Origin: Candidatus Brocadia sinica JPN1
GTDB taxonomy: Bacteria > Planctomycetota > Brocadiia > Brocadiales > Brocadiaceae
Direction: 5' to 3'
Assembly: GCF_000949635.1 (NCBI RefSeq)
Contig: NZ_BAFN01000001.1
Span: 1,364,001 to 1,428,000 of the forward strand
DNA: 64,000 nt
The translations under genes were made by a program, and so were the position numbers. Position 1 is the stretch's first letter; every line of letters starts with the position of its first letter. Shown in pieces: positions 28,504 to 58,835 of the stretch. The notes below the pieces were generated by a model. It was not told the DNA's origin and ran no database searches. It saw nothing but the letters and a program-made list of their open reading frames with translations.

Positions 28504-28587
28504 GTAAGATGAATTCATTTGAAAGATACCATAAATATTTATAAAATATTTATGCTGATACATGCAATAAATTTGTGGAGAGAATAC

Positions 28588-28797
28588 ATGTCTAGAACAA
28601 CCATAACATTGCCCAATTCATTGTTGGACGAATTGATGTCAGAAGTTGAGGCAAAAAGCAAAACCGAGGCCGTTGTAAAAGCCATTAAAGATGAAATACG
28701 GATGAAAAAGATGGAAAAAATAAAGGCAATGGCTGGCAAGATGGAATTCACAAAATCCGCAGACAAACTCAGGCACGAAGATGAAAGACTCAGGTAA
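28588..28797 (+). CDS. Ribbon-helix-helix antitoxin (VapB-like)
   Basis: A 69-residue antitoxin: the N-terminal RHH strand SRTTITLPNSLLDELM binds DNA, and the basic/charged C-terminal half would wrap the toxin. The start at 28588 has GGAGAG seven bases upstream; a longer in-frame reading from a TTG is not needed. Its last codons overlap the ATG of the PIN toxin gene at 28781. The pair should be autoregulated. Family assignment is by size, motif and partner. Confidence 0.8.
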   Translation: MSRTTITLPNSLLDELMSEVEAKSKTEAVVKAIKDEIRMKKMEKIKAMAGKMEFTKSADKLRHEDERLR

Positions 28798-29181
28798 GAT
28801 TCTGGTTGATACATCGGCATGGATTGAGTTTTTTAAAAAAAAGACCCCTATTATAGGGGTGTTTTGGAGTTAATAGATAATGCCAGGATTTGTTGTGTGG
28901 GGATTGTGTTTGCTGAGTTGTTACAGGGTGCAAAGTCCCAAAAGGAGCTTGACGTCTTAAAGGAGTTTTTGTATGTATTTGATTTTCTTCCCGAAACTAC
29001 GGAAATGTGGAGAAAAGCTGGCGAGTTGTCTTATTTACTCCGGCAGAAAGGCAAGGTGGTTGGACTTTCGGACTGTTACATTTCTGTAACTGCAAGTTCA
29101 AATAATGCAAAACTTTTAACTCTGGATAGACATTTTGAGGTCATTGGAAAAGAAACCGGGTTGAATTTATATGAATTTTAA
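28781..29181 (+). CDS. VapC-type PIN toxin split by a -1 frameshift
   Basis: PIN-domain ribonuclease toxin in two frames. The first frame (ATG 28781, stop 28873) gives ILVDTSAWIEFFKKK with the first catalytic Asp. The rest (LELIDNARICCVGIVFAELLQG, then the later acidic LSDCYISVTA and LLTLDRHF) runs in the -1 frame to 29181. A -1 shift at the A-run 28835-28842 would give one continuous PIN domain of about 133 residues. The A AAA AAG heptamer (28837-28843) is followed immediately by a perfect hairpin. It may be programmed frameshifting, a real inactivating mutation, or a missing A in a homopolymer. The remaining catalytic acids look intact. Confidence 0.75.
28837..28860 (+). promoter_or_regulatory. 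Candidate -1 frameshift signal (slippery A AAA AAG plus hairpin)
   Basis: The slippery heptamer 28837-28843 is in the correct register with the toxin's first frame. The stem ACCCCTA (28844-28850) pairs perfectly with TAGGGGT (28854-28860) across a 3-base loop. The hairpin starts directly behind the heptamer, closer than the 5-9 bases usual for stimulatory structures, which weakens the case. Confidence 0.4.
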
Positions 29182-31467: not shown

Positions 31468-32946
31468 TTATAAGTTTAAATTCCCGTTAAACTGCAGACG
31501 TCTGTCAACCTTATTTCTTAATTCATCTTCATCCAGGGCAAAGGAAGGGCAAATCTCGATTAAACCAATAACATTGCCTTGCGAGTCTGTGGGAATAGAA
31601 ATGCCTGCCTCTCGCAGCCATCGTCCAAACAAATTAACCATATCCTGTCGCGATGTAGCCGGAGAGTTTTCCCCCTCCATATTTTTTACGGGTGAAAACT
31701 CATCTTCCCGAAGAACTTCCATGATCACGCTTTTCTGTACGTGTTTTAGTATATCAAAGATGAAACTCTCGAATTTAATGGCATTGTTCTTCTCCGGAAT
31801 AATGGTCATACCATTTTCATTCAGATATGGTACCCTTTTTATCGCGGCATGATAAGGAGGCGTCTCTCCTCTCTGGTGTACTTTCTTAAGAAACTCAATG
31901 TTCATCATATGTACCGCAATATTCGCGGCATTAAACGTTAATGTGCCATCCTCTTTTTTTGCATACATATCCTCCCGGCTCAGTTCACTGTATTCAATCA
32001 CCTGTAAATGCCCGTTGATGTTCACTACAATTCCCACCTTTTCTTCGGGGTGGCATTTTTTTACAATTTTCAATGACATCTCTGCATGGTTCATGAGATG
32101 ATAGCCAACAAAAATGGGATCGGCAATCTTTATCAATACGTTATCCACCTGATGATAGAAGATATGCTTAATACCCCGTCTCTCCATGTCGTCAAGAATG
32201 CCTTTTTCTCCGAGAGCAATGATTGTTCCCCCATGACCATTAGGACTCATTACAATATTTGATTTAGAATCCATGAGTAAATTTCCCTGAAGGTCCACAA
32301 CAGGGAGCATACCCTGGGTAAAAAAGCACACCTGTTGAGGGTCTAACCCAAAGAACCGGTGCGACTGAAAGAAACCTTGAGTCGTAGGGCCATTGTTTTC
32401 ACTCGTCATGATATACCACGGAATGCAGATGCTGTACCTTTGTTGAATTGCACGTATCTTTTCTGCATGCAGTTGAAAGATGCTCTTTCTGACAATTGGC
32501 GTAATGGGAAACGTCCCCTTAGGGCCATTGATTCCTAATCTTGTTCCATCTCCACCAGCGACGGTAAGGATGGCAACCTCGCCTTTCCGTAAAGAACCTT
32601 CTCCAATCTGTTTCGCCCTTTGTGCAGTTCCTTTTTCAAAATCGTTTTTGGGAATGGGTATAATGTGTGGCGGAGTTATATTACCCCGAACTGGTTGTGG
32701 GGTCTTCAAAAGGGCATCGTTGACAAGATCCTTTATCAGGCAGAAATCAATAGAGGCTGTCTGGCTGATCAGCTTCTTCTTTTCTGAAGGGGTTATTTCA
32801 TTCCACCATCTGAAGATATGGGCTTGTCCCGCATCAAAGGCATTCTTAATATAACTTTTGTAGGCTGGATACTCTTTTTCCGGTGTTTTTCTCTGTAAGG
32901 TTTTATTATTAACCGGAGAATCAATAAGAGAATTAGGAAGATTCAT
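31468..32946 (-). CDS. UDP-sugar / UDP-N-acetylglucosamine pyrophosphorylase (eukaryote-like UDPGP family)
   Basis: Nucleotidyltransferase of 492 residues making a UDP-sugar from UTP and a sugar-1-phosphate. The signature VAGGDGTRLGINGPKGTFPI (about 130-149) and YIMTSENNGPTTQGFF, CFFTQGMLPVVD, MSPNGHGG, VDNVLIKIADP and FNAANIAVHMM (about 180-350) resemble the UAP/AGX1-type enzymes of eukaryotes more than bacterial GlmU or GalU. The substrate could be GlcNAc-1-P, GalNAc-1-P or Glc-1-P. AGGAGA precedes the ATG. Its leader carries a promoter, a GEMM-type aptamer and a terminator, which suggests c-di-GMP control of UDP-sugar supply for matrix or cell-surface polysaccharide. Confidence 0.85.
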   Translation of the reverse strand: MNLPNSLIDSPVNNKTLQRKTPEKEYPAYKSYIKNAFDAGQAHIFRWWNEITPSEKKKLISQTASIDFCLIKDLVNDALLKTPQPVRGNITPPHIIPIPKNDFEKGTAQRAKQIGEGSLRKGEVAILTVAGGDGTRLGINGPKGTFPITPIVRKSIFQLHAEKIRAIQQRYSICIPWYIMTSENNGPTTQGFFQSHRFFGLDPQQVCFFTQGMLPVVDLQGNLLMDSKSNIVMSPNGHGGTIIALGEKGILDDMERRGIKHIFYHQVDNVLIKIADPIFVGYHLMNHAEMSLKIVKKCHPEEKVGIVVNINGHLQVIEYSELSREDMYAKKEDGTLTFNAANIAVHMMNIEFLKKVHQRGETPPYHAAIKRVPYLNENGMTIIPEKNNAIKFESFIFDILKHVQKSVIMEVLREDEFSPVKNMEGENSPATSRQDMVNLFGRWLREAGISIPTDSQGNVIGLIEICPSFALDEDELRNKVDRRLQFNGNLNL

Positions 32947-33302
32947 GAGTACTTCTCCTGATAGTGAGTTAATAAAACAAAGATAACTATCTGATTTTTT
33001 ATTGAATATCTATGCTCTTTCATTCCAATGTATGATGTTGATCTACATTTTTTCTTTAATGTTATACCACAATGTTATACCACCTTTTGCCTCTTGAGAT
33101 GTTATTAATAGCTCACTTTTTCAAAAAGTCCACAAGACAGATTAAAATCTTTAAACTTATCAGACCGGTTAAGTATTAAAAAGCTTTTTGGTGATTAGAG
33201 GAATTATCGACAAAAATGCTAAGAATTTTATAAGAATGAAATGATTATAGGTCTAAATTATTTACAGTTACACGTAAAACACCTTTGCAAACATCCTTTA
33301 AA

Positions 33303-33358
33303 ACAAAAAAGCCTTACTGCAAAGATATTTATTTAAAAACATCTTCGGCAGTAAGGCT
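33303..33358 (-). terminator. Intrinsic terminator of the riboswitch expression platform
   Basis: On the minus strand AGCCTTACTGC pairs perfectly with GCAGTAAGGCT (positions 33358-33348 and 33320-33310), extended by AAGAT/ATCTT inside, and is followed directly by TTTTTTG. No T-tract follows it on the plus strand, so it acts leftward only. The 5' arm of the stem is also the 3' end of the aptamer, so aptamer folding and terminator formation should compete. Confidence 0.85.
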
Positions 33359-33443
33359 ATCTTACAACACGTCCTTGTAAGTTTAAAGACCCTTTACTTT
33401 GCGCCCCCTGATCGCTCAGGGTTTGCCTTTGTCGTAATGTCTC
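33346..33443 (-). promoter_or_regulatory. GEMM / cyclic-di-GMP-I-type riboswitch aptamer
   Basis: Read on the minus strand: the conserved GGCAAACC (about 33430-33420), then a perfect stem CCTGA-GCGA-TCAGG closed by a GNRA tetraloop, then GGGGCGCAAAG and AAGGGTC, a second hairpin region (CTTACAA...TTGTAAG), and the 3' segment GATAGCCTTACTGCCG. This order and these strings follow the GEMM-I consensus, including the CGCAAAG block. GEMM-I RNAs bind c-di-GMP; a minority bind cGAMP. An upstream promoter and a downstream terminator complete a switch for the UDP-sugar pyrophosphorylase gene. Because the terminator reuses the aptamer's 3' end, ligand binding probably turns expression on. Confidence 0.82.
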
Positions 33444-33464
33444 TTTTATTTTAGAATTGCTTGT

Positions 33465-33493
33465 CTTATACCATTTATAAAATCATCTGTCAA
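33465..33493 (-). promoter_or_regulatory. Sigma70-type promoter driving the riboswitch leader
   Basis: On the minus strand TTGACA (33493-33488) and TATAAG (33470-33465) are separated by exactly 17 bases. Transcription should begin near 33458, about 15-20 bases before the aptamer. This is one of the best canonical promoters in the window. Between the terminator and the ATG at 32946 lie about 350 AT-rich bases without a gene. Confidence 0.8.
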
Positions 33494-33684
33494 ACAAAAA
33501 TTTAAACATTTTTAATCATAGGTCAATTCATAATCTATGGAATTATAACTAATTTCTCTTCAATAACAAGGATTTTTGCATCTAACATATTTAACCCTTT
33601 TGGGAATTTACCCTTGAAATAACTCTGGAATAACAGTAACCTTAAGCGTAATACTTATAATCGGAAAAAGAGAAAATATTTTTA

Positions 33685-36018
33685 ATGAAAAAAACAGTAA
33701 TTATTATCGCGATCATTGTCGGTTTTGTAATCGGAATAACAGCAACTGCTTACATCCTTATCAAACGGGCAACCTCTGATGAAGCAATAAAGGGCCGTTT
33801 GTTAAGCATGTTGAGAGATTTTGGAGAGGCTAAAATTGATCACGCGCATATGGATTTTTTAGAAGGGATTGAAATCGATAATCTATCGTTTGTTGGGACA
33901 TCGGAGGATGTCCGGGGTAAGTCTCTTAAAATCCCCAAGATCGTATTAAAATACAGTCCCAAAAGTCTTTTCAAAGGCAAGCCCGTCATTATCAATGCTA
34001 TTATTATTGCCCCCGAATTGACCGTAGAAAAACCAACAGACATTTGGTCACTCCTTGATGCCATCAAGGCAAACTTTGATAAGCTGGAAATGCCTGCCTA
34101 TACGGACGCATTAAGGCAAGGCATAGAGATCCGGAACCTGAAGATCCATATCAAAGAAGACCCTCAGGCAAATAGCCCGGAAATCAAGCTATCGGGAATT
34201 GATATCACGTTTCTCCCATACGCTGGCTCTTTTCAAGACCTTTTGATCAAAGGAGATATCAGTGATGAATTTTTGGGGAATTACTCATTTACCATGAAAC
34301 TGTATCCCGGCATCCCCAAACTTGATGTTGAGGCCTATGCAAATAATATTGAGATGAACGAGGACTTTTTGAGTAGATTTCCTTATATTGGCAAGATGCT
34401 CTGGAACGATTATAAACCCACGGGAAAGGTCAGCGTATCCTGTAACGCGAGTTTTCATAATCGGGATCAGCAAAAAAAGATGGACTATGGAATCAGCATC
34501 CACATCAACGGACTGGAGGCTATGTATACAGATTGGCCGATCCTGATTTATAATCTGAATGGCGAGGTAGAATTGAATCCAGAAAAGCTGTATCTTAAGG
34601 GGCTTGTGGGTTATATCAAATGTGGAAACTATACCTCTCAGGCCGAATTCAAAGGAGAGTTTAATCTCTATGGCCCTCAAAAAACCTTTGTAATAACGAT
34701 TCCTAATTTATATGTAAATCAGGAACTGCTGGAAAATATACCTGAATTCGGCAAACAGGTATGGTCAAAGGTGCAGCCTATTGGTTTAGTAGGCCTGACC
34801 CTTCAGCATAACGAAGGGGAAAATCAGGAACGTAATTATTTCCTGACGGTGAATTGCAAGGGATTAGAAATAAAACCTCAGGATTTTTCCCGGCCTATAT
34901 CGTATGTGAATGGAGAGTTCAAGTTAGCCAATAACGTCATCGTGTTTAAAAATACCAGTGGTTTTATCCAATGCGGGGATCAGTCTGTTTTTGCTGAAAT
35001 GAATGGCGTTTACGACATGAATAGCGGCCGAAAGATATTCAATCTCCATGCCCCGCACCTATCCATCACAGAGTCCTTTTTGAAGGACCTCCCCAACAAG
35101 GAAATTGGTGAAAAGCTTTGGACAAATTTGCATCCAGCAGGAACGGCAGATATTAGCGCCAATTTTCAAGGTTTCGGCGAAAAGAAGGCCGATGATTATA
35201 CCATGGAGATCAACCTCAAGGATTGCGAGATTTTGGCCGGCGCATATAACATCCCTCTTTGGGGGGTGTCAGGAAGACTGGAGATCAATAAGAGGGGATT
35301 TTTCAGCAAGCACATCGACGCCAAATGCTGTGGAGGACATGTAGAAGGGACGCTATCTATCCAAACAGACACTAACCCGCATCAATACAAGGGAGAATTA
35401 AATTTTTCAAGGGTTGCGCTGGAAGAACTGTCTCAAAAGGTCACAAAAACAGAAAATTCGTTGTCCGGGTTGCTTTACGGCAACATAAAATTTCAGGGAA
35501 ATGGCACAGATCCCAAAAATTTTCACGCTGAGGGACAAATCAATGTAAATGAAGGGTATCTCACTGAGGTACCTATCATCCTGAGCGTTTTTGACTTTCT
35601 AAACCTCAGTTTATCTAAAAAGGAAAGTTTTCACAGTGCAAAAGCAAAGTTTATGGTCAAAGATGGCATAATTCATATTGAGGACGGAAGGGTCTTTAGC
35701 GATACAATAGAACTCAATGGTCGTGGAAATATCAATTTTGACGGTAATATTCACATAGATGTTGTTGCCGGATTCAACAAGGGCTTATTTTCTCAGCTTC
35801 CTATTGTGGGGAAGTTTTTTGACTTAGTGGTGGGTGGCGTGCGAAAACAGCTAACGATGGTAGAAATCAAAGGCACATACTCAAATCCAGAAAGCCATTC
35901 AGTCCCTTTTAAGCCCCTCACCCAGTCAATCAAGAACATGTTCGAGGTACTACCGAAGGAAAATCATGAAATTACAAAAGCCACCGAAGGCAGGAAAATA
36001 GAGAACGACTCTCTTTGA
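33685..36018 (+). CDS. AsmA-like / DUF748-type envelope protein
   Basis: A large exported protein of 777 residues with an N-terminal membrane anchor (about 4-27, VIIIAIIVGFVIGITATAYIL) and a long repetitive beta-rich body with repeated ISGDG-like turns and phrases such as LWNDYKPTGKVSVS and LWTNLHPAGTADISA. The C-terminal part (about 600-740, including IELNGRGNINFDGNIHIDVVAGF) matches the AsmA_2 / AsmA-like C-terminal domain. Family members form bridges that move lipids between the membranes or affect outer-membrane assembly; the exact role here is unknown. It lies three bases before the acyl-CoA synthetase gene. Confidence 0.78.
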   Translation: MKKTVIIIAIIVGFVIGITATAYILIKRATSDEAIKGRLLSMLRDFGEAKIDHAHMDFLEGIEIDNLSFVGTSEDVRGKSLKIPKIVLKYSPKSLFKGKPVIINAIIIAPELTVEKPTDIWSLLDAIKANFDKLEMPAYTDALRQGIEIRNLKIHIKEDPQANSPEIKLSGIDITFLPYAGSFQDLLIKGDISDEFLGNYSFTMKLYPGIPKLDVEAYANNIEMNEDFLSRFPYIGKMLWNDYKPTGKVSVSCNASFHNRDQQKKMDYGISIHINGLEAMYTDWPILIYNLNGEVELNPEKLYLKGLVGYIKCGNYTSQAEFKGEFNLYGPQKTFVITIPNLYVNQELLENIPEFGKQVWSKVQPIGLVGLTLQHNEGENQERNYFLTVNCKGLEIKPQDFSRPISYVNGEFKLANNVIVFKNTSGFIQCGDQSVFAEMNGVYDMNSGRKIFNLHAPHLSITESFLKDLPNKEIGEKLWTNLHPAGTADISANFQGFGEKKADDYTMEINLKDCEILAGAYNIPLWGVSGRLEINKRGFFSKHIDAKCCGGHVEGTLSIQTDTNPHQYKGELNFSRVALEELSQKVTKTENSLSGLLYGNIKFQGNGTDPKNFHAEGQINVNEGYLTEVPIILSVFDFLNLSLSKKESFHSAKAKFMVKDGIIHIEDGRVFSDTIELNGRGNINFDGNIHIDVVAGFNKGLFSQLPIVGKFFDLVVGGVRKQLTMVEIKGTYSNPESHSVPFKPLTQSIKNMFEVLPKENHEITKATEGRKIENDSL

Positions 36019-36021
36019 TAT

Positions 36022-38148
36022 ATGCTGGAACATTTCTTTTCACCAGGAACAGTTGCTGTCATTGGCGCCTCCCGCGAAGAGGGGAAGGTAGGATACGATT
36101 TACTCAAAAATCTGGTCACGTATGGGTACAAGGGGAAGGTCTACCCGGTAAATCCCCATGCAGAGAATATCCTGGGCATCAAGACCTACACAAGCCTTAA
36201 GGAAATCAACGACACGATTGATCTCGCGGTAATTGTTGTGCCCGCTCCACATGTGCTGAAAGTGGTGGACGAATGCAGCGCCAAAGGGATTGATTCGATC
36301 ATTGTTATCAGCGCCGGCTTTAAAGAAAGTGGTATTGACGGGGCATCGAGGGAGCGGGAATTACATCAGAAAATCAAACAACATTCGGTACGTATGCTCG
36401 GACCAAACTGCCTCGGTTTGATCGATACGCAATCATTCCTCAATGCCTCTTTTGCCGCCGATATGCCAGCACAGGGTAATATCGCGTTCATTTCCCAGTC
36501 AGGGGCGCTTTGCACTTCAGTCTTGGACTGGGCAGTGAACGAATGTATCGGATTTTCCAAATTTATCAGCATGGGAAATAAAACCGACATTGATGAGGTA
36601 GACCTTATACAAGTTATCGATGAGGATATCCATACGAAAGTTATTCTTGGGTACTTAGAAGGGGTAAAAAACGGAACGGCATTTATGAATGCCGCAAAAA
36701 AAATCACGAAAAAAAAACCCGTGATTGTAATAAAATCCGGGGGTACAATGGCAGGCGCAAAGGCAGCCTCATCGCATACGGGAACATTGGCTGGCGCAGA
36801 AAATGCTTTTGATACGGCATTTAAACAGTCAGGAATTTTGCGTGCAAAAACAGCTGAAGAACTCTTTGACTATGCCAGAATATTCAGCCATCAGCCGCTA
36901 CCCAAAGGACCACGCATAGCATTGATCACAAATGCCGGCGGACCAGGAATTATTGCAGCAGATGCGGTGGAACGGTCGAAACTGGAAATGGCGTCATTTT
37001 CAAAGAATACCATAGACCTCCTCCGCGCCGCCTTACCGGCTATGGCAAATATATATAACCCCGTCGATGTGCTGGGAGATGCAAAGGCAGACCGGTATAA
37101 ATTTGTTATCGAAAAAGTAATAGAAGACCCCAATGTAGACACAATTCTTGTCATTTTGACGCCTCAAACCATGACGGAAATAGAAAAAACGGCAGAAGTA
37201 ATAGGCGAGATTGCAAACCGTACCGACAAGCCCATCGCAACCTCCTTTATGGGCGGCAAACGGATTGGAACGGGCTTAGAGGTTATGCGACAGAGAAAAG
37301 TGCCCAATTATCCATTCCCTGAGCGTGCAATATCAGCCGTCGAAGCTATGTACAAACACACCTTATGGCAAAAAAAACCTGCGTCAAAAATAAAAAAATT
37401 CATTATTCAAAAAGAGAAGGCAACATCAATCGTTGAGAAAATAAGGCAAATGGGACGTCAATATTTGTGCGAAGATGAGGCAAAGCAGGTTATTGCGGCC
37501 TATGGCTTCAGGATTCCCCAAAGCATCCTTGCTTCCACAGAAGCAGAGGCAGTGCAGGCCGCGGAAGAGATTGGATACCCGGTTGTCGCAAAGATTTCTT
37601 CACCGGACATCCTTCATAAATCTGATTTTGGCGGAGTGAAAATCGGAATAAAAGATGCGGCAGAGATCCGGAGGTTTTTTTCTGATGTTACCCAAAAGGC
37701 GCAAAGGCTTATGCCATCAGCCGAAATAAAAGGCGTCCTGGTGCAACAGATGATTACAGGCGGCAAAGAGGTAATCCTCGGGATGTCCCGCGATCCACAG
37801 TTTGGTCCCTTGTTGATGTTTGGCCTCGGTGGTATTTATATAGAAGTGCTAAAAGACGTCACGTTCCGGATAGCGCCCATTGGGCCAAATGAAGCAGAAG
37901 AGATGATTCATGAGATTCGGTCTCTTCCGCTGCTAAAAGGTGTGCGTGGTGAAAAACCTGTGGATATAAATGCCCTTGTTGATGCTATTTTAAGGCTTTC
38001 TCAGTTGGTGACAGATTTTCCCGATATTCTGGAAATGGATATAAATCCCTTGATTGTTTTCCCTGAGGGAGGAGGCGCCATGGCCATAGATGCGCGCATG
38101 ACGATATCGCAGACAGCAAATTATACTCAAAATGCTCACAAAATGTAA
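36022..38148 (+). CDS. ADP-forming acetate/acyl-CoA synthetase, fused alpha-beta subunits
   Basis: Makes ATP from acetyl- (or acyl-) CoA plus ADP and phosphate, or the reverse. The protein has 708 residues: CoA-binding domain (about 5-135, with FFSPGTVAVIGASREEGKVG), succinyl-CoA-ligase-like domain (about 145-300, IAFISQSGALCTSVLDWA and the phospho-histidine-type SSHTGTLAGAENAFD), a middle domain, and an ATP-grasp domain (about 480-700, GYPVVAKISSPDILHKSDFGGV, QQMITGGKEVILGMSRDPQFG). The last eight codons and the stop lie in the left end of MITE copy 4, so the native C-terminus was replaced. A BioD-like/DRTGG protein follows. The preferred acid is not clear from sequence. Confidence 0.88.
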   Translation: MLEHFFSPGTVAVIGASREEGKVGYDLLKNLVTYGYKGKVYPVNPHAENILGIKTYTSLKEINDTIDLAVIVVPAPHVLKVVDECSAKGIDSIIVISAGFKESGIDGASRERELHQKIKQHSVRMLGPNCLGLIDTQSFLNASFAADMPAQGNIAFISQSGALCTSVLDWAVNECIGFSKFISMGNKTDIDEVDLIQVIDEDIHTKVILGYLEGVKNGTAFMNAAKKITKKKPVIVIKSGGTMAGAKAASSHTGTLAGAENAFDTAFKQSGILRAKTAEELFDYARIFSHQPLPKGPRIALITNAGGPGIIAADAVERSKLEMASFSKNTIDLLRAALPAMANIYNPVDVLGDAKADRYKFVIEKVIEDPNVDTILVILTPQTMTEIEKTAEVIGEIANRTDKPIATSFMGGKRIGTGLEVMRQRKVPNYPFPERAISAVEAMYKHTLWQKKPASKIKKFIIQKEKATSIVEKIRQMGRQYLCEDEAKQVIAAYGFRIPQSILASTEAEAVQAAEEIGYPVVAKISSPDILHKSDFGGVKIGIKDAAEIRRFFSDVTQKAQRLMPSAEIKGVLVQQMITGGKEVILGMSRDPQFGPLLMFGLGGIYIEVLKDVTFRIAPIGPNEAEEMIHEIRSLPLLKGVRGEKPVDINALVDAILRLSQLVTDFPDILEMDINPLIVFPEGGGAMAIDARMTISQTANYTQNAHKM

Positions 38149-38266
38149 ATTTTATACAGGGGGGTGGCACGGACAAACTCCGTTTGTCCGTGTTGAACTT
38201 GCATACGTTACCTATGAATCATCCATTTTGAAACGTAGATATACAACACAGTGTAATTATTGCAAG
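38124..38266 (-). mobile_element. MITE copy 4, truncated to about half length
   Basis: Begins TACTCAAAATG after a TA (38122-38123), contains one GGTGGCACGGACAAAC...GTTTGTCCGTG hairpin and the central region up to about ATTGCAAG, then similarity stops. It has the same orientation as copy 1. Its left end supplies the final codons and stop of the acyl-CoA synthetase gene. The remaining gap to 38568 contains the palindromic repeat listed separately. Confidence 0.75.
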
Positions 38267-38401
38267 TCTAAATGGAAAGTGAAAATGCAAACTGTAACAC
38301 AGGGGCTGGGTAACCCCGCCCTTACCTTTTTGCTGTGCTGTCAGGAGTTTCCTCCTGACAGTTTATAATATGTTTTTAGTTATGTATTTGGCACGAAAAT
38401 A

Positions 38402-38502
38402 CCTCTCACCCTAACCCTCTCCCACAAGGGTCAAGGGAACTTTCCCTCCCTTGGCTTCGTCGTGAGCTCTGTCGAACGATGGGAGGGATTAAGGAGGGTG
38501 AT
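38402..38502. repeat. CCCTCTCCC/GGGAGG palindromic dispersed repeat
   Basis: C-rich CTAACCCTCTCCCACAAGGG followed after about 60 bases by GATGGGAGGGATTAAGGAGGG. It belongs to the same kind of widespread 'CCCTCTCCC...GGGAGAGGG' repeat as the one inside the methyltransferase gene near 43.4 kb. No coding function seen. Confidence 0.5.
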
Positions 38503-38568
38503 ATATTTTCATGCCCTTTTGCGAGCTATTATGGCTCATGAATGTTTACTGTATAAAAGGGGGTTATT

Positions 38569-39639
38569 ATGATACCCGTATTTATTGCCTCTGTTTCGCC
38601 CTTTTCCGGAAAGAACTTAATTTGTCTCGGCTTAGGATTAAAATTCAAGAGGGACGGCTACAAAGTCGGGTACTTTAAACCCGTCGGATTTTCACCCGTT
38701 CTTATTGAAGACATACTTACTGACGAGGACGCCGCCTTCCTTTCAAAGGCGCTGGAAGTTGATGGGCCGCTCCAATCCATTTGCCCTGTGGTGTTAACTG
38801 ATGAAATTATTGGACGCCTGATACGTGGAGAGGAACTGAATATTCGCCAGAAGACGTTGACTGCCTTCAATCTTGCATCACAGGGAAAGGACATCATGGT
38901 TACGCGGGGGGTGGGAAGATTGTCGGGTGGCACGTGTCTGCGGTTTTCAGAATTGGATTTTATCAAGGAAACACATGCAAAGGTAATCTTTGTGGATAAA
39001 TTCCAATCTTACATTGATACCCTTGACGGATTTATCTACGCATCAAAGATGTTAGGGGATCAATTGCTGGGTGTTGTGTTTAATTTGATCCCCTCAACAA
39101 AGATAGGTTATATACGGGAACTCCTAGTTCCCTTTCTCAAAAACCATGGTATTACTACCTTGGGAATTATCCCAAAAGACCCGATCCTTGGCGCAGTGCC
39201 AATCAGAGAAATTGTCGACACCCTTAACGGAACCGTTCTCTGTTGCGAGGATAAAACAGATGAATTGATTGAACATTTCATGATTGGAGCCATGAATGTC
39301 GAGAGCGCCTTGAGTTATTTTCGAAAGGTACCAAACAAGGCCGTCATTACCGGAGGCGACCGGAGTGACATTCAACTGGCAGCCCTCGAAACCCCCACAA
39401 AGTGTCTCATCCTCACGGGTGAACTGTATCCAAATGCCTCTATTTTGGGTCGCGCACAGGGGATTGGCGTACCGGTTGTTGTGGTGAGATCGGATACCGC
39501 AGCGACACTTGAGGCTTGCGAAAACCTTTCAGGGTACGTGAGCCTGCATTCGAGGTCTAAGGTACAGCGCGCCGCTGAAGTGGTAGCGCGGGAAATAGAT
39601 TTTAAGACCATTTATGCTCAATTGGGGTTATCGAAATAA
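38569..39639 (+). CDS. BioD-like P-loop protein with DRTGG domain
   Basis: A 356-residue cytoplasmic protein. The N-terminal half is a BioD-like P-loop domain, with SVSPFSGKNLICLGLGLKFK (about 7-26) in place of the Walker A loop and GYFKPVGF as in dethiobiotin synthetase. A DRTGG domain lies at about 205-320 (LGAVPIREI, AVITGGDRSDIQLAALE). The same domain pair forms the N-terminal regulatory part of long phosphate acetyltransferases. It follows an acyl-CoA synthetase, so a sensor or regulator of acetyl-CoA/acetate metabolism is plausible; no catalytic role can be claimed. GGGGG upstream of ATG serves as ribosome site. Confidence 0.75.
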   Translation: MIPVFIASVSPFSGKNLICLGLGLKFKRDGYKVGYFKPVGFSPVLIEDILTDEDAAFLSKALEVDGPLQSICPVVLTDEIIGRLIRGEELNIRQKTLTAFNLASQGKDIMVTRGVGRLSGGTCLRFSELDFIKETHAKVIFVDKFQSYIDTLDGFIYASKMLGDQLLGVVFNLIPSTKIGYIRELLVPFLKNHGITTLGIIPKDPILGAVPIREIVDTLNGTVLCCEDKTDELIEHFMIGAMNVESALSYFRKVPNKAVITGGDRSDIQLAALETPTKCLILTGELYPNASILGRAQGIGVPVVVVRSDTAATLEACENLSGYVSLHSRSKVQRAAEVVAREIDFKTIYAQLGLSK

Positions 39640-39827
39640 ATATGACTTCAGTTATGGGAAATGCCGTAAGTAAGCTGCCATGCTTTTGTTGTAGCGGGAC
39701 TGACCAAAAAGTTCCCAAATTCGATTTCTTTATACAACCATTTGCTCTGTTGTTTGCCAGAGATACACACTACAAGCCATGCCAAAATCTGCGAAGCCAC
39801 AGATACATATCCCTGCTTACTACCCCT

Positions 39828-39880
39828 CCCGCTTACTATTGCAGGTGTCGGGCTCTGCTGGGACAAGTTTAAAGGTTATT
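39828..39880 (+). repeat. Left copy of direct repeat flanking a toxin-antitoxin cassette
   Basis: About 53 bases starting CCCGCTTACTATTGCAGG and ending GTTTAAAGGTTATT, about 80 percent identical to 40825-40876. The gap 39640-40008 otherwise shows no intact gene. Confidence 0.65.
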
Positions 39881-40008
39881 CCCCCGTCAGACATCAATTT
39901 CTAGCGGGGCTTGTCATGAGGGACAGGCCTTGGGCGAAAAGCCTCAATCTGTTTTTTCCTAAAACAGATGGTTGATTAACAACTACACTTGTAGTATATT
40001 GTAAACAT

Positions 40009-40500
40009 ATGGAAATAGTTTTTGATTCTTCCACGCTGATACTTCTGGCAAAGATAGAAATATTGGGGATTGTTTCCGGAGATGTTCATATAATAATTCC
40101 CGAAATGGTAAAGGCTGAATGCGCCCGCAAAGATAGCCTTGATGCCAAATTGATTTCTGCTCTTATTGGTAACCATAAAATTGAGATAGTTACAGCAAAT
40201 AAAAAGGCCGTTGGCATGCTGTGCAGAGATTTCAGAATTCACGCCGGTGAGGCTGAATCTCTTGCTGTTGCGTTAAAGAGACAATTATCGCTCGCAGTGG
40301 ATGACTTGCCGACTATAAAAGCGTGCAAGATACTGAACATTCAATTTACAACAGCAATACACTTTTTAGTAAATATTGCAGAAAAAGAGAAAATTGATAA
40401 AGAAAGGGCAATCGTGAAACTTGAGAAGCTATCTTTATACGGACGATACAGTAAAAGAATAATAGATAATGCTACTAAAAGGCTGAAAGGAGACAAATAA
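40009..40500 (+). CDS. DUF3368-type PIN-like toxin
   Basis: A 163-residue PIN-fold nuclease-like protein of the DUF3368 group. It has the first acidic site IVFDSSTLILLAKI (about 3-16), an HAGEAESLAVALKR block (about 79-92) with the second acid, and LAVDDLPTIKACKIL with the distal acidic residues (about 95-109). Such proteins are the toxin half of modules with UPF0175 partners. The toxin comes first; its stop overlaps the antitoxin ATG by one base. An ATG start at 40009 is preceded by a weak ribosome site. The cassette lies between two direct repeats. Confidence 0.8.
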   Translation: MEIVFDSSTLILLAKIEILGIVSGDVHIIIPEMVKAECARKDSLDAKLISALIGNHKIEIVTANKKAVGMLCRDFRIHAGEAESLAVALKRQLSLAVDDLPTIKACKILNIQFTTAIHFLVNIAEKEKIDKERAIVKLEKLSLYGRYSKRIIDNATKRLKGDK

Positions 40501-40784
40501 TGTCGGTAATAAGTTTAAGACTGAAAGACAGGGAGATAAAGAGAATCAACGAACTAGCCAGAATGGAACATAAGGATAAGTCCACAGTTGCGAGAGAACT
40601 GATAGATTACGGCTGGGAATTTCTGATGCTCAAACTTTACAGGGAGGGCAAGCTGTCTTTAAGCGCTCTGGCAGATAAGCTTGAACTTTCGGTAAGCGAG
40701 ACAGTAGATTTATTGTCAGAATTCGGAGTTGAATCTCCCATAGATTATGACGATTATTTAAAAGGATTTGAGGTATTCAAATAA
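40500..40784 (+). CDS. UPF0175-like antitoxin with ribbon-helix-helix start
   Basis: A 94-residue protein. The N-terminal third (SVISLRLKDREIKRINELA) is RHH-like. The rest has the UPF0175 pattern, with LKLYREGKLSLSALADKLELS (about 49-69), a small helix-turn-helix of the kind seen in these antitoxins. AAAGGAG lies six bases before the ATG inside the toxin gene, giving translational coupling. Probably binds the upstream PIN-like protein and represses the operon. Confidence 0.78.
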   Translation: MSVISLRLKDREIKRINELARMEHKDKSTVARELIDYGWEFLMLKLYREGKLSLSALADKLELSVSETVDLLSEFGVESPIDYDDYLKGFEVFK

Positions 40785-40824
40785 ACATACATGCCGGAAA
40801 CAAGCAAGGTGACGGATACAGATA

Positions 40825-40876
40825 CCCGCTTACAACTGCAGGTTCAGGCATTGCAGGGACACGTTTAAAGGTTATT
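40825..40876 (+). repeat. Right copy of direct repeat flanking the toxin-antitoxin cassette
   Basis: About 52 bases, starting CCCGCTTACAACTGCAGG and ending GTTTAAAGGTTATT; matches 39828-39880. The two enclose exactly the DUF3368/UPF0175 pair, as if the cassette had been inserted into, or had been swapped within, an older sequence. Confidence 0.65.
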
Positions 40877-40970
40877 AATCCGCAATTTGGCTGAAAGCGG
40901 GAGATACTTTGCTCTATCAGATGGAATATAAAAGATTAAATTTTTAGAATTTCTTAAAAGGTAACAACCG

Positions 40971-43760
40971 ATGCCAAAGAGAAAAGGGAAAAATGCCGAA
41001 ACGACAAATCAATCTGAAGCGAAGGCATATCGTCATGCTGAGGCGGATTCTCCTTTACGTCCGGATGTAGGCATTCAGGCGCAGTTCAGGAAGAAAAAAC
41101 CTCCCAAAACTTACCGATATGATTCTTCACTTTCTCCTGCTCTGGATTGGGACGGACAAAACTCAACACGAGAGTTGGGTGAGTGGCTTATTGCCATGAT
41201 TGAAAAGGCGGCTGTGCTTCCAGCGCCACATACCTTTGACAAGCCCCAGGAGTTTAATAATTCTGCAGGACATGTTATTTCATCCGTCAGAGGACTGAAT
41301 GACGCCGTGGAGCAGTTGAAACGTCTCCAAAAACCTTTTCTTAACTGGACAGGCAAGGCCGAGCGGCTTTCATTTGACGTGCCGACGCTACCACTCTTTG
41401 TCCACGAGCGTCTCTCCACGAAGGCGATTATTGAAACCCTGAAAGGACACAGGAAACAAGAGAGACCCAAACAATTGTCGTTGTTTGATCTCTTTGGCGA
41501 TGAACAGAGATCGGTTACCGACCAGGTGTTGAAGGCTTATGAATACCGGGACAAGTGGGTAAACCGTATGATTCTCGGCGATTCCCTTGTGGTGATGAAC
41601 TCCCTCCTGCACTACGAAGGACTTGGCGGTCAGGTGCAGATGATCTATTTTGACCCGCCCTATGGCATCAAATTCGGCGTCAACTTCCAGCCGTTTATTC
41701 GCAATCGTGTAGTAGATCATAACAAAGATGAGGACATGACCCGTGAACCTGAGATGGTAAAGGCTTACAGAGATACATGGGAACTTGGATTACATTCATA
41801 CCTTACTTATTTACGTGATCGTTTATTAATAGCACGTTATCTCCTTTCTCCGACAGGAAGTATTTTTGTTCAAATAAGCGATGAAAATTTACACCATGTT
41901 CGAGAAATAATGGATGAAGTGTTTGGCGAGAAAAATTTTGTAGCAGTAATCCCTTTTAGGAAAACCGGCAGTCAAGACAGTAAATATATTGGTATAATCA
42001 ATGATTTTTTGCTGTTCTACTCAAAAGATATAGACCAATTGAAGTTCAATAAACTGTTCGCTAAGAAGAACGTCGTTTTAGATGATCAATACAACTCCAT
42101 CCTCTTGCCCAATGGGGAAACTCGAAAACTGACTAAAGAAGAAAAACTAAATCTTGAATTGATACCAAAAAGTGCAAAAATCTTCCAGGCTACATCACTT
42201 CAATCTGATGGACGTTCGGAAAATGTAGATTATCGTTTTGAATTTCAAGGTTCGATTTATGAACCCAACCCTAAGAGCCATTGGAAAACTTCTCTTGATG
42301 GACTAAGAAAATTAGCGGAAAAGGGGAGAATCATAAAAATTGGGAAAGGTATCCGTTACTTGAGGCTTTTAAGCGACTTTTCTTTTACAGAGTTGACAAA
42401 CTTTTGGGACGATACTTACGCTGCTGCGGATATGGAATATGTGGTACAAACATCAATGGAAGTTATTCAACGGTGCATGTTGATGACAACTAAACCGGGT
42501 GATCTCGTGCTTGATCCAACTTGTGGAAGTGGAACAACGGCTTATGTTGCAGAGCAATGGGGCAGGCGCTGGATTACCATTGATACAAGCCGAGTTCCAT
42601 TTGCGCTTTCACGGCAAAGATTACTTACTGCTACATATCCCTATTATCAGCTTAAAGATGAATCCAGAGGCCCTTCAGGTGGATTTGTTTATGTGCGTAA
42701 ACAGAATAAAAAGGGTGAAGAAATCGGTGGTATTGTCCCGCATATAACTCTTGGAAGCATTGCCAATAGTGAACCGCCCGCCGAAGAAGTGCTTGTTGAC
42801 CGGCCTGAAATAGACAACAAAGTTATCCGTGTAACAGGCCCATTCTGTGTTGAGGCGACAATCCCAACGCCTGTTGACTGGGAGGGCGATGGCGTAGAAG
42901 ACTCTGGTGCTGGTACTGTCGAACAATACGGTTCATTTATTGATCGTATGCTTGAGATATTGCGCAAATCGCCAGTGCTTCATATAGGAGGCGGTAAGAG
43001 CGTTACCCTTAAAAACATCCGTCCCCCTGCAAAAACATTATCACTATCCGCAGAAGCAATAGTTGTAAATGGAGATGAAAAACCTGTAGCGTTGCTCTTT
43101 GGCCCTGAAAATGGCGCTGTTAGTGAAAAGCTTGTACACGAGGCGCTGAAAGAGGCGAACTTGAGAGGTTACACCCATTTGTATGTAATTGGGGTTGGCA
43201 TTCAATCAAACGCCAGGATACTGATTGAGAATGCTGTAAATATGGATCTTATTCCGGCAACTTACGTTCAGGCAACTCCCGATATTATGATGGGAGACCT
43301 CTTGAAAAACATGCGTTCCAGCCAGATCTTCAGCGTCTGTGGGCTGCCAGAGGTAAGGCTTACAAAGGTAAAACCCAGCGCTCCTTCACCCCAGCCCTCT
43401 CCCACAAGGGGAGAGGGAGTCTCTATGTATCAGGTAGAGTTGCTTGGGCTTGACGTCCTCAATCCCGTGACTATGAACATTTACAAACGAAGCGGAAATG
43501 ACGTGCCGGCATGGTTTCTGGATACGGATTACAATGGTCTCTGTTTCCACGTCTGTCAGGCATTCTTTCCACGCACCAGTGCATGGGATAACCTCAAGCG
43601 TGCATTAAAGGGTAGTTATGATGAAGGCGTATGGGATCACCTGGCAGGAACGAAAAGTGTTCCATTTGAGGCTGGTGAACATGGACAGATTGCGGTAAAG
43701 GTGATTGACGATCGCGGGAATGAGCTAATGGTTGTGAAGAATCTGAAGGAATCTGTATAA
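40971..43760 (+). CDS. Type III-like site-specific DNA methyltransferase (Mod subunit)
   Basis: Beta-class N6-adenine/N4-cytosine methyltransferase of 929 residues. Motif IV FDPPYGIKFG (about 227) comes before the SAM motif DPTCGSGTTA (about 515), with a variable, probable target-recognition region between. An extra C-terminal domain (about 580-929) is present. It modifies host DNA and would specify the sequence cut by the nuclease encoded at 44490. A C-rich palindromic repeat has inserted in frame near residue 805 (peptide SPQPSPTRGEG). An IS200-type element now separates it from its nuclease partner. GGTAAC is its only ribosome-site-like signal. Confidence 0.88.
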   Translation: MPKRKGKNAETTNQSEAKAYRHAEADSPLRPDVGIQAQFRKKKPPKTYRYDSSLSPALDWDGQNSTRELGEWLIAMIEKAAVLPAPHTFDKPQEFNNSAGHVISSVRGLNDAVEQLKRLQKPFLNWTGKAERLSFDVPTLPLFVHERLSTKAIIETLKGHRKQERPKQLSLFDLFGDEQRSVTDQVLKAYEYRDKWVNRMILGDSLVVMNSLLHYEGLGGQVQMIYFDPPYGIKFGVNFQPFIRNRVVDHNKDEDMTREPEMVKAYRDTWELGLHSYLTYLRDRLLIARYLLSPTGSIFVQISDENLHHVREIMDEVFGEKNFVAVIPFRKTGSQDSKYIGIINDFLLFYSKDIDQLKFNKLFAKKNVVLDDQYNSILLPNGETRKLTKEEKLNLELIPKSAKIFQATSLQSDGRSENVDYRFEFQGSIYEPNPKSHWKTSLDGLRKLAEKGRIIKIGKGIRYLRLLSDFSFTELTNFWDDTYAAADMEYVVQTSMEVIQRCMLMTTKPGDLVLDPTCGSGTTAYVAEQWGRRWITIDTSRVPFALSRQRLLTATYPYYQLKDESRGPSGGFVYVRKQNKKGEEIGGIVPHITLGSIANSEPPAEEVLVDRPEIDNKVIRVTGPFCVEATIPTPVDWEGDGVEDSGAGTVEQYGSFIDRMLEILRKSPVLHIGGGKSVTLKNIRPPAKTLSLSAEAIVVNGDEKPVALLFGPENGAVSEKLVHEALKEANLRGYTHLYVIGVGIQSNARILIENAVNMDLIPATYVQATPDIMMGDLLKNMRSSQIFSVCGLPEVRLTKVKPSAPSPQPSPTRGEGVSMYQVELLGLDVLNPVTMNIYKRSGNDVPAWFLDTDYNGLCFHVCQAFFPRTSAWDNLKRALKGSYDEGVWDHLAGTKSVPFEAGEHGQIAVKVIDDRGNELMVVKNLKESV
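43382..43424 (+). repeat. Palindromic repeat in frame inside the methyltransferase gene
   Basis: CCAGCCCTCTCCCACAAGGG followed by GAGAGGGAG: the CCCTCTCCC and GGGAGAGGG arms pair. It encodes SPQPSPTRGEG within an otherwise family-like C-terminal domain and keeps the frame open. Related repeat DNA lies near 38.4 kb. Confidence 0.7.
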
Positions 43761-57692: not shown

Positions 57693-58835
57693 ATGGCGTT
57701 GAAGACATTTATCAGCAAATATAAGTATTGCGCTATTGGGATTTTGATTGCCATGAATTGCTCCGCGGTAACTGTTTTTAAACTGAACGGCCTCGCTTTC
57801 GGCCTGGTAGTTCTGGCCTTTTGCTGTACCCTGCAGTTTCTGATTAATGACGAAGAACCCGACAAATCGACCGAAAAGGAATTGGATGCCATTTCCGAAA
57901 GATTATTCCACAGGGTCATGAATATCGTTCCGGAGATTGTTTACGTCTCCATGTTTGACGGTTCTGTAAAATATATCAGCGATGGGATAGAAAAGCTGAT
58001 AGGATACAAACCGGATGAAATTTACAAAACACGAAATTTGTTACTCCATCTGGTGCATCCCGATGATAAAGAAAAGGTGTCGAAACAGATACAAAACCTG
58101 CAAAATGGAAGTGAGGCAACGATAGAATATCGGTTATTAAAAAAAGACAGGACATATGTTTGGGTCTCCGATTATCTGAATACCATCAAAAATGAATGGG
58201 GCAATGTAACCCACTACAACGGCATTCTGGTTAATTTTGATGAGAGGAAAATAACCGATAAGAATTTGCAAAGCCTGAACGCCAGGATACACCAATTAAA
58301 TGACATGGTCAATCATCATGCGGTGCGAGATAGCCTAACGAATATCTACAACAGGCGATATTCACTCGTAATCCTGCAGAATGAATTTAACCGGGCACGC
58401 GCACAAAATAAGGCATTGTCCTGTCTGCTGATGGATATCGACCATCTTGAACCGATCAACAATCGATATGGATATTTCATTGGAGATCGTATTATTACAG
58501 AAGTCTCAAAATGTCTCCAAAAACATATCAGATCATCTGATGTGGTCTCCCGGTTTGGGGAAGACGAGTTCCTGATTATATTGCCGGAAATTGATAGTGG
58601 AGAATTGGACAGGATATCAGGTCTCTTGGTAAATGCAGTAGAAAATTGTCTCGTAAAAGACGAGGAAAAGAATCTGAATATTGATTTTAGGGTAACGGTA
58701 GGGACAAGTTCTGTCACTACGCTGACAAAAAACATCACCGATTTAATTGAACAGGCAGGCAAGGCGCTCTATGCTGCCAAGGTGTCGAAGAAGGCGCGTT
58801 CGAAAGGGCGGCCGGTCGCTGAACTGAAAAGATGA
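57693..58835 (+). CDS. PAS-GGDEF diguanylate cyclase
   Basis: A 380-residue protein that should make c-di-GMP. Two membrane segments (about 10-27, 32-50), a PAS domain (about 68-185, with MFDGSVKYISDGIEKLIGYKPDE), a short coiled coil, and a GGDEF domain (about 210-375). The active-site loop is GEDEF (about 288-292; a functional variant of GGDEF). An I-site R-x-x-D (RSSD) lies five residues before it, so product inhibition is probably retained. The stop overlaps lon by ATGA, tying it to the protease genes. A predicted c-di-GMP riboswitch lies in the same window. Confidence 0.92.
   Translation: MALKTFISKYKYCAIGILIAMNCSAVTVFKLNGLAFGLVVLAFCCTLQFLINDEEPDKSTEKELDAISERLFHRVMNIVPEIVYVSMFDGSVKYISDGIEKLIGYKPDEIYKTRNLLLHLVHPDDKEKVSKQIQNLQNGSEATIEYRLLKKDRTYVWVSDYLNTIKNEWGNVTHYNGILVNFDERKITDKNLQSLNARIHQLNDMVNHHAVRDSLTNIYNRRYSLVILQNEFNRARAQNKALSCLLMDIDHLEPINNRYGYFIGDRIITEVSKCLQKHIRSSDVVSRFGEDEFLIILPEIDSGELDRISGLLVNAVENCLVKDEEKNLNIDFRVTVGTSSVTTLTKNITDLIEQAGKALYAAKVSKKARSKGRPVAELKR

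Follow-up and report, generated by a model that had tools for sequence, protein, structure and literature searches.

A c-di-GMP-I-GGC riboswitch predicted before a UDP-N-acetylhexosamine pyrophosphorylase gene of Candidatus Brocadia sinica, one of more than 50 copies of a genomic module

The leader of a sugar-nucleotide gene in Candidatus Brocadia sinica JPN1 contains a c-di-GMP-I-GGC aptamer that shares one strand with an intrinsic terminator. With a probability of roughly 0.6, we read this element as a transcription-attenuation ON switch, which adds a c-di-GMP-gated transcript to a basally expressed gene; the ligand, the direction of switching and the dual-promoter control are the parts of this reading that we infer. 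The locus by itself is an added member of a known riboswitch class. The larger finding is an expanded regulon, as the switch in the window (the whole 64-kb stretch of DNA analysed) is one of about 55-58 copies of one module, which together would make up a c-di-GMP regulon spanning the genome, with many secreted and cell-surface proteins.

Infernal matched the Rfam family RF03167 (c-di-GMP-I-GGC) to the minus strand at 33436-33343 with 67.7 bits, compared to a gathering score of 59 (E 7.4e-14), and this was the sole gathering-level Rfam match within the window. RF01051 (c-di-GMP-I), a sister family of the same clan, matched the same aptamer with 64.9 bits at a cut-off of 35. The preliminary description had noted a GEMM-like aptamer and proposed a search against RF01051; the RNA exceeds the curated gathering scores of both families, and the match is far above chance level. 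RF03167 is matched over the entire model, and the RNA has the cis-regulatory place in a 5' leader known for this family. The aptamer itself shows no difference from RF03167; unusual here are the 58 copies in one genome and an almost fixed terminator sequence. With RF01051 it shares the GNRA-capped stem, a G at position 20 and the shared-strand terminator, differing in that it scores slightly better with the GGC sister family. The GNRA-capped stem, P2, had likewise been seen earlier, and other genomic copies contain the paired variants CCCAGA/CTGGGG and CTCTGA/CAGAGG. In the RF03167 alignment the ligand-pocket motifs are intact. Judged by its sequence, the window RNA is a genuine c-di-GMP riboswitch and an additional member of the known class.

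The 5' arm of the terminator (GCCTTACTGC, 33357-33348) lies inside the aptamer, where it forms the 3' strand of helix P3. The 3' arm (GCAGTAAGGC) is located at 33320-33311, followed by U6 at 33310-33305. Hairpin search and folding both confirmed that the terminator begins in the 3' end of the aptamer, as had been proposed, and the promoter TTGACA-17-TATAAG, the aptamer elements and the U-tailed terminator were all found in place. The arrangement is that of an expression platform: the terminator reuses the 3' strand of the aptamer, the element is located in a 5' leader and a co-oriented gene lies downstream. The features of the locus are listed in Table 1.

Table 1 Features of the riboswitch locus in window coordinates. 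G021 is a sister species that carries the riboswitch at the same gene.
Feature	Coordinates	Strand	Basis and remarks
P1, promoter-like TTGTTA-16-TATAAT	33542..33569	-	Upstream of riboswitch; 10/12 consensus bases; also in orthologues without riboswitch
Riboswitch promoter TTGACA-17-TATAAG	33465..33493	-	TTGACA 33493-33488, 17-nt spacer, TATAAG 33470-33465; 26/29 bases kept in G021
c-di-GMP-I-GGC aptamer (GEMM-I type)	33343..33436	-	RF03167 and RF01051 matches; G at Vc2 position 20
GNRA (GCGA)-capped stem CCCTGA-GCGA-TCAGGG	33406..33421	-	RF03167 alignment; compensatory variants in other genomic copies
Helix P3, 5' strand GTAAAGGGTC	33388..33397	-	Competes with terminator 3' arm for shared strand; RF03167 alignment and folding
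Shared strand GATAGCCTTACTGC (aptamer P3 3' strand and terminator 5' arm)	33348..33361	-	Alignment, hairpin search, folding
Intrinsic terminator, ~21-bp hairpin (-29 kcal/mol) and U6 tail	33305..33357	-	Hairpin search; conservation in G021
Leader block P2, promoter-like, conserved TATAAAATTCTTA...GTCGATAATT	33197..33239	-	Below terminator; conservation 0.83 vs intergenic mean 0.40; 86% to G021
Leader block P3, conserved TGTGGACTTTTTGAAAAAGTGAGCTATTAATAA	33096..33134	-	15-nt palindrome at 33129-33115; 91% to G021
UAP/AGX1-type UDP-N-acetylhexosamine pyrophosphorylase gene (predicted), 492 aa, monocistronic	31468..32946	-	ORF; PF01704; RBS AGGAG 32959-32955

The protein encoded downstream matches PF01704 with 163 bits. 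Its nearest solved relatives are the UDP-N-acetylglucosamine diphosphorylase 8yp3 (322 bits) and human AGX1 (316 bits), with likeness over most of the protein, whereas the best match to a UTP-glucose-1-phosphate enzyme (UGP) reached only 62 bits; full-length homology thus favours UAP over UGP. The UDP-sugar enzyme of the preliminary description can therefore be refined to a UAP/AGX1-type UDP-N-acetylhexosamine pyrophosphorylase, its activity being predicted from homology. In difference to the UAP1/AGX1 family at large, the gene is prokaryotic, its substrate is a prediction, and it resides in a genome with an additional GlmU-N-like gene. Since this separate GlmU-N-like ORF (292.8 bits, below the cut-off for a full-length glmU) is present, the UAP-type gene may offer the cell another way to make UDP-GlcNAc or UDP-GalNAc. 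Elsewhere in the window, at 28519-29181 (+), two small adjacent ORFs of 92 and 105 aa appear toxin-antitoxin-like by eye.

A UAP-type gene was found in 30/33 genomes of the family and is universal in the genus Candidatus Brocadia. The riboswitch precedes it in two of the 11 Brocadia genomes, namely B. sinica and its sister species G021, and in no other family member with a readable leader, some loci being cut by contig ends. Between these two genomes, 89 of 94 aptamer positions (95%), 55 of the 59 bases of 33301-33359 covering the terminator (93%) and 26 of 29 positions of the riboswitch promoter (90%) are identical, in comparison to 62-74% in spacers and 64% at third codon positions. Because aptamer, terminator and promoter are far more conserved than these baselines, the alignment indicates that purifying selection maintains the switch in place between the two species. 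As the simplest history, a promoter region already in place would have received the module in the common ancestor of B. sinica and G021. In most cases that allow comparison of both relatives, G021 is closer to B. sinica than a further relative, G018. The identity of the UAP protein runs opposite (80% to G018, 77% to G021), so the riboswitch may instead have been lost in G018.

A loose consensus scan of the AT-rich leader, which requires a final T in the -10 element and hence excludes TATAAG, returned sigma-70-like sites no more frequently than in shuffled sequences. The riboswitch promoter alone is not beyond chance, and its support thus consists in its conservation in the sister species. Leader blocks P2 and P3 are likewise termed promoter-like by conservation and not by consensus scans. 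In an alignment of ten Brocadia leaders, P1 and both lower blocks are conserved in the eight leaders that lack the aptamer; the TATAAT of P1 is invariant in 10/10, and the best 20-nt stretches of the three blocks score 0.78-0.83 compared to an intergenic mean of 0.40. Towards G021 the two lower blocks are conserved to a similar degree as the riboswitch parts. By these comparisons, block P2 appears ancestral in the genus and is a candidate promoter, and leader block P3 is a possible promoter or operator.

The presence of the lower blocks in orthologues without the riboswitch lends weight to an alternative in which both aptamer and terminator are functional, yet nearly all expression of the gene stems from its own promoters below the terminator. 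The upstream RNA would then be short and terminated, and c-di-GMP would have only a slight effect on UDP-sugar supply. Such a scenario would also account for a gene that is universal in the genus while so few of its leaders carry the switch, and for the gap of 358 nt between terminator and start codon, which is longer than at most genomic copies. What it leaves unexplained is why promoter, aptamer and terminator are so much better conserved in this species pair than neutral spacer, and the direct position of nearly all genomic copies before a co-oriented gene fits read-through control; we consider it unlikely, although it is a serious contender. Since the switch parts are conserved and so are the lower blocks, we favour dual control, in which the lower blocks would drive a basal level of transcription and the switch upstream would add a c-di-GMP-gated share. 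The switch probably governs only part of the expression of the UAP-type gene, because older conserved promoter-like sequences sit between the two. The proposed c-di-GMP control of UDP-sugar supply thereby survives in part: the switch is conserved in place, but it is rare before this gene in the genus and conserved blocks intervene. Transcription starting downstream of the terminator, which had been named as an argument against the proposal, is what these same blocks would in part suggest.

The base that distinguishes c-di-GMP from cGAMP types lies in AAAGGCAAACC, which has a G, the c-di-GMP-type base, at what we take to be position 20 in the numbering of the Vc2 structure. GEMM-I variants of the cGAMP type have an A at position 20. 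Among the 58 genomic copies, 56 carry G at this position, the exceptions being L105, a weak copy with A, and L103 with T. The genome encodes 17 GGDEF-domain and nine PilZ-domain matches; one of the 17, a GGDEF diguanylate cyclase domain, is located in the window at 58320-58793 (+). Sensing of 3',3'-cGAMP instead of c-di-GMP would have a precedent in the cGAMP-preferring GEMM-I riboswitches of Geobacter (PMC8683041), and the A in L105 shows the variant base within the same genome. The overall fold of the Geobacter variant is alike, but the window copy has the G of nearly all other copies, and we regard cGAMP as its ligand as very improbable. L105 (aptamer G000:C1:568047-568159, -) precedes a putative lipoprotein gene.

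In the preferred reading, with c-di-GMP as ligand, a transcript from either TTGACA/TATAAG or the older P1 promoter would enter the aptamer. Without ligand, GCCUUACUGC would pair with GCAGUAAGGC to form the terminator, and transcription would end about 160 nt out. Upon binding of c-di-GMP, helix P3 would retain GCCUUAC, blocking the lower terminator stem and permitting read-through into the UAP-type gene (ON). The older promoter-like blocks below the terminator would supply a basal level, to which the switch would add a c-di-GMP-induced supply of UDP-GlcNAc/GalNAc. As helix P3 and terminator share one strand, a ligand-stabilised P3 must oppose termination, and the model predicts a ligand-ON switch, in line with what folding competition had suggested before.

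Folding of the predicted 162-nt leader yielded -55.8 kcal/mol for the terminator state and -44.5 kcal/mol for an aptamer state with P2 and P3 forced. In the growing transcript the shared strand is predicted to keep an upstream partner up to about 140 nt and to have moved into the terminator by 146 nt. Tight ligand binding together with co-transcriptional kinetics could overcome the gap of 11 kcal/mol. In the ligand-free partial transcript, the partner assigned to the shared strand is nt 31 and not the native P3 strand; the energy model alone is therefore no proof of the aptamer fold, which is supplied by the covariance model. This missed P3 fold might point to an OFF switch or to a copy that is decaying and without function, but either is highly improbable given the strand shared by P3 and terminator, the selection visible between B. 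sinica and G021 and the intact ligand-pocket motifs.

In the genome of 4,077,002 bases (3 contigs), RF03167 has 58 matches at E up to 0.001, of which 34 exceed the gathering score, and 55 copies lie above the RF01051 cut-off. Ten other genomes of the genus carry 22-46 RF03167 copies and other genera of the family 1-28; outside the order, copies were found in 1/13 genomes only. Nearly all copies in B. sinica carry one terminator sequence that overlaps the aptamer and precedes a co-oriented gene. The copies resemble one another from about 15 nt ahead of the aptamer up to the U-tract, and other genera, as well as another family of the order, have the same terminator arms. A three-way pairing constraint on the P3 5' strand, the shared strand and the terminator 3' arm would explain the frozen sequence, since compensatory change is hard where three strands share one pairing, and the platform offers a useful case for riboswitch evolution. 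Concerted evolution within one genome as the sole cause of the near-identical terminators was rejected because the arms recur in other genera and another family, and co-mobilised promoters because of the boundaries of inter-copy similarity. We also considered an orphan or antisense role, to which the co-oriented genes directly downstream of nearly all copies are opposed.

Although the hairpin search called terminators at 58/58 copies, the calls at L051 and L055 (G000:C1:4031779 and 10558) are T-rich artefacts. Both represent a shorter, terminator-less form, also found in other genera, that precedes giant LamG proteins; being close to the start codon and without terminator, they are probably translational. 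Of 57 downstream genes, roughly 20 have a clear equivalent next to a module in G021, and fewer do in G018; with so few shared placements, module placement evidently turns over.

Many modules stand before genes for regulators, exporters and adhesin-like secreted proteins. According to Pfam, the first downstream genes include several with domains or repeats (LamG/pentaxin, RCC1, carboxypeptidase-regulatory repeats, SBBP beta-propellers, PKD, beta-helix and DUF11), as well as cell-wall amidases, sigma-54 activators, a LuxR regulator, an ABC-2 exporter and cytochromes. Further examples are a phage-sheath-like protein, a caspase-domain protein and a GGDEF-EAL enzyme, and many first downstream genes have no Pfam match. 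By these annotations the target list reads as a cell-surface and signalling regulon, into which a sugar-nucleotide enzyme would fit well.

Granule and biofilm formation underlies anammox reactors, and its control in anammox bacteria is poorly known. In the literature collection that we searched, no paper on c-di-GMP riboswitches in these organisms was found. We tentatively propose, as an idea with rather less than even odds, that in Brocadia one fixed aptamer and terminator module of about 160-200 nt has come to stand before over 50 genes unrelated to each other, with some insertions, such as the one in the window, going into promoter regions already present. A principal c-di-GMP output would then lie in RNA switches and not in proteins, and these switches would jointly activate surface adhesins, exporters and the supply of sugar nucleotides as granules form. 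A regulon of this size would supply about 50 candidate targets of c-di-GMP, and through the window locus UDP-GlcNAc/GalNAc supply would become linked to this signal.

Several individual copies deserve mention. At L106:785-5221, a weak copy (28 bits) lies before a GGDEF-EAL multi-PAS protein, which suggests feedback on c-di-GMP. At L061:1124-3073, another copy precedes a phage-tail-sheath-like gene, possibly of a contractile injection system; this gene also adjoins a copy in G018, with 95% identity. Close same-strand copies at G000:C1:2849513 and 2849993, 792405 and 793158, and 3404999 and 3406618 raise the possibility of tandem control, and copy pairs about 120-220 nt apart are found in the relatives G015 and G021. 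Finally, the copies at G000:C1:13663-20499 recur some 22 kb away at 35984-42155, and since their flanks are almost identical, a segmental duplication is indicated.
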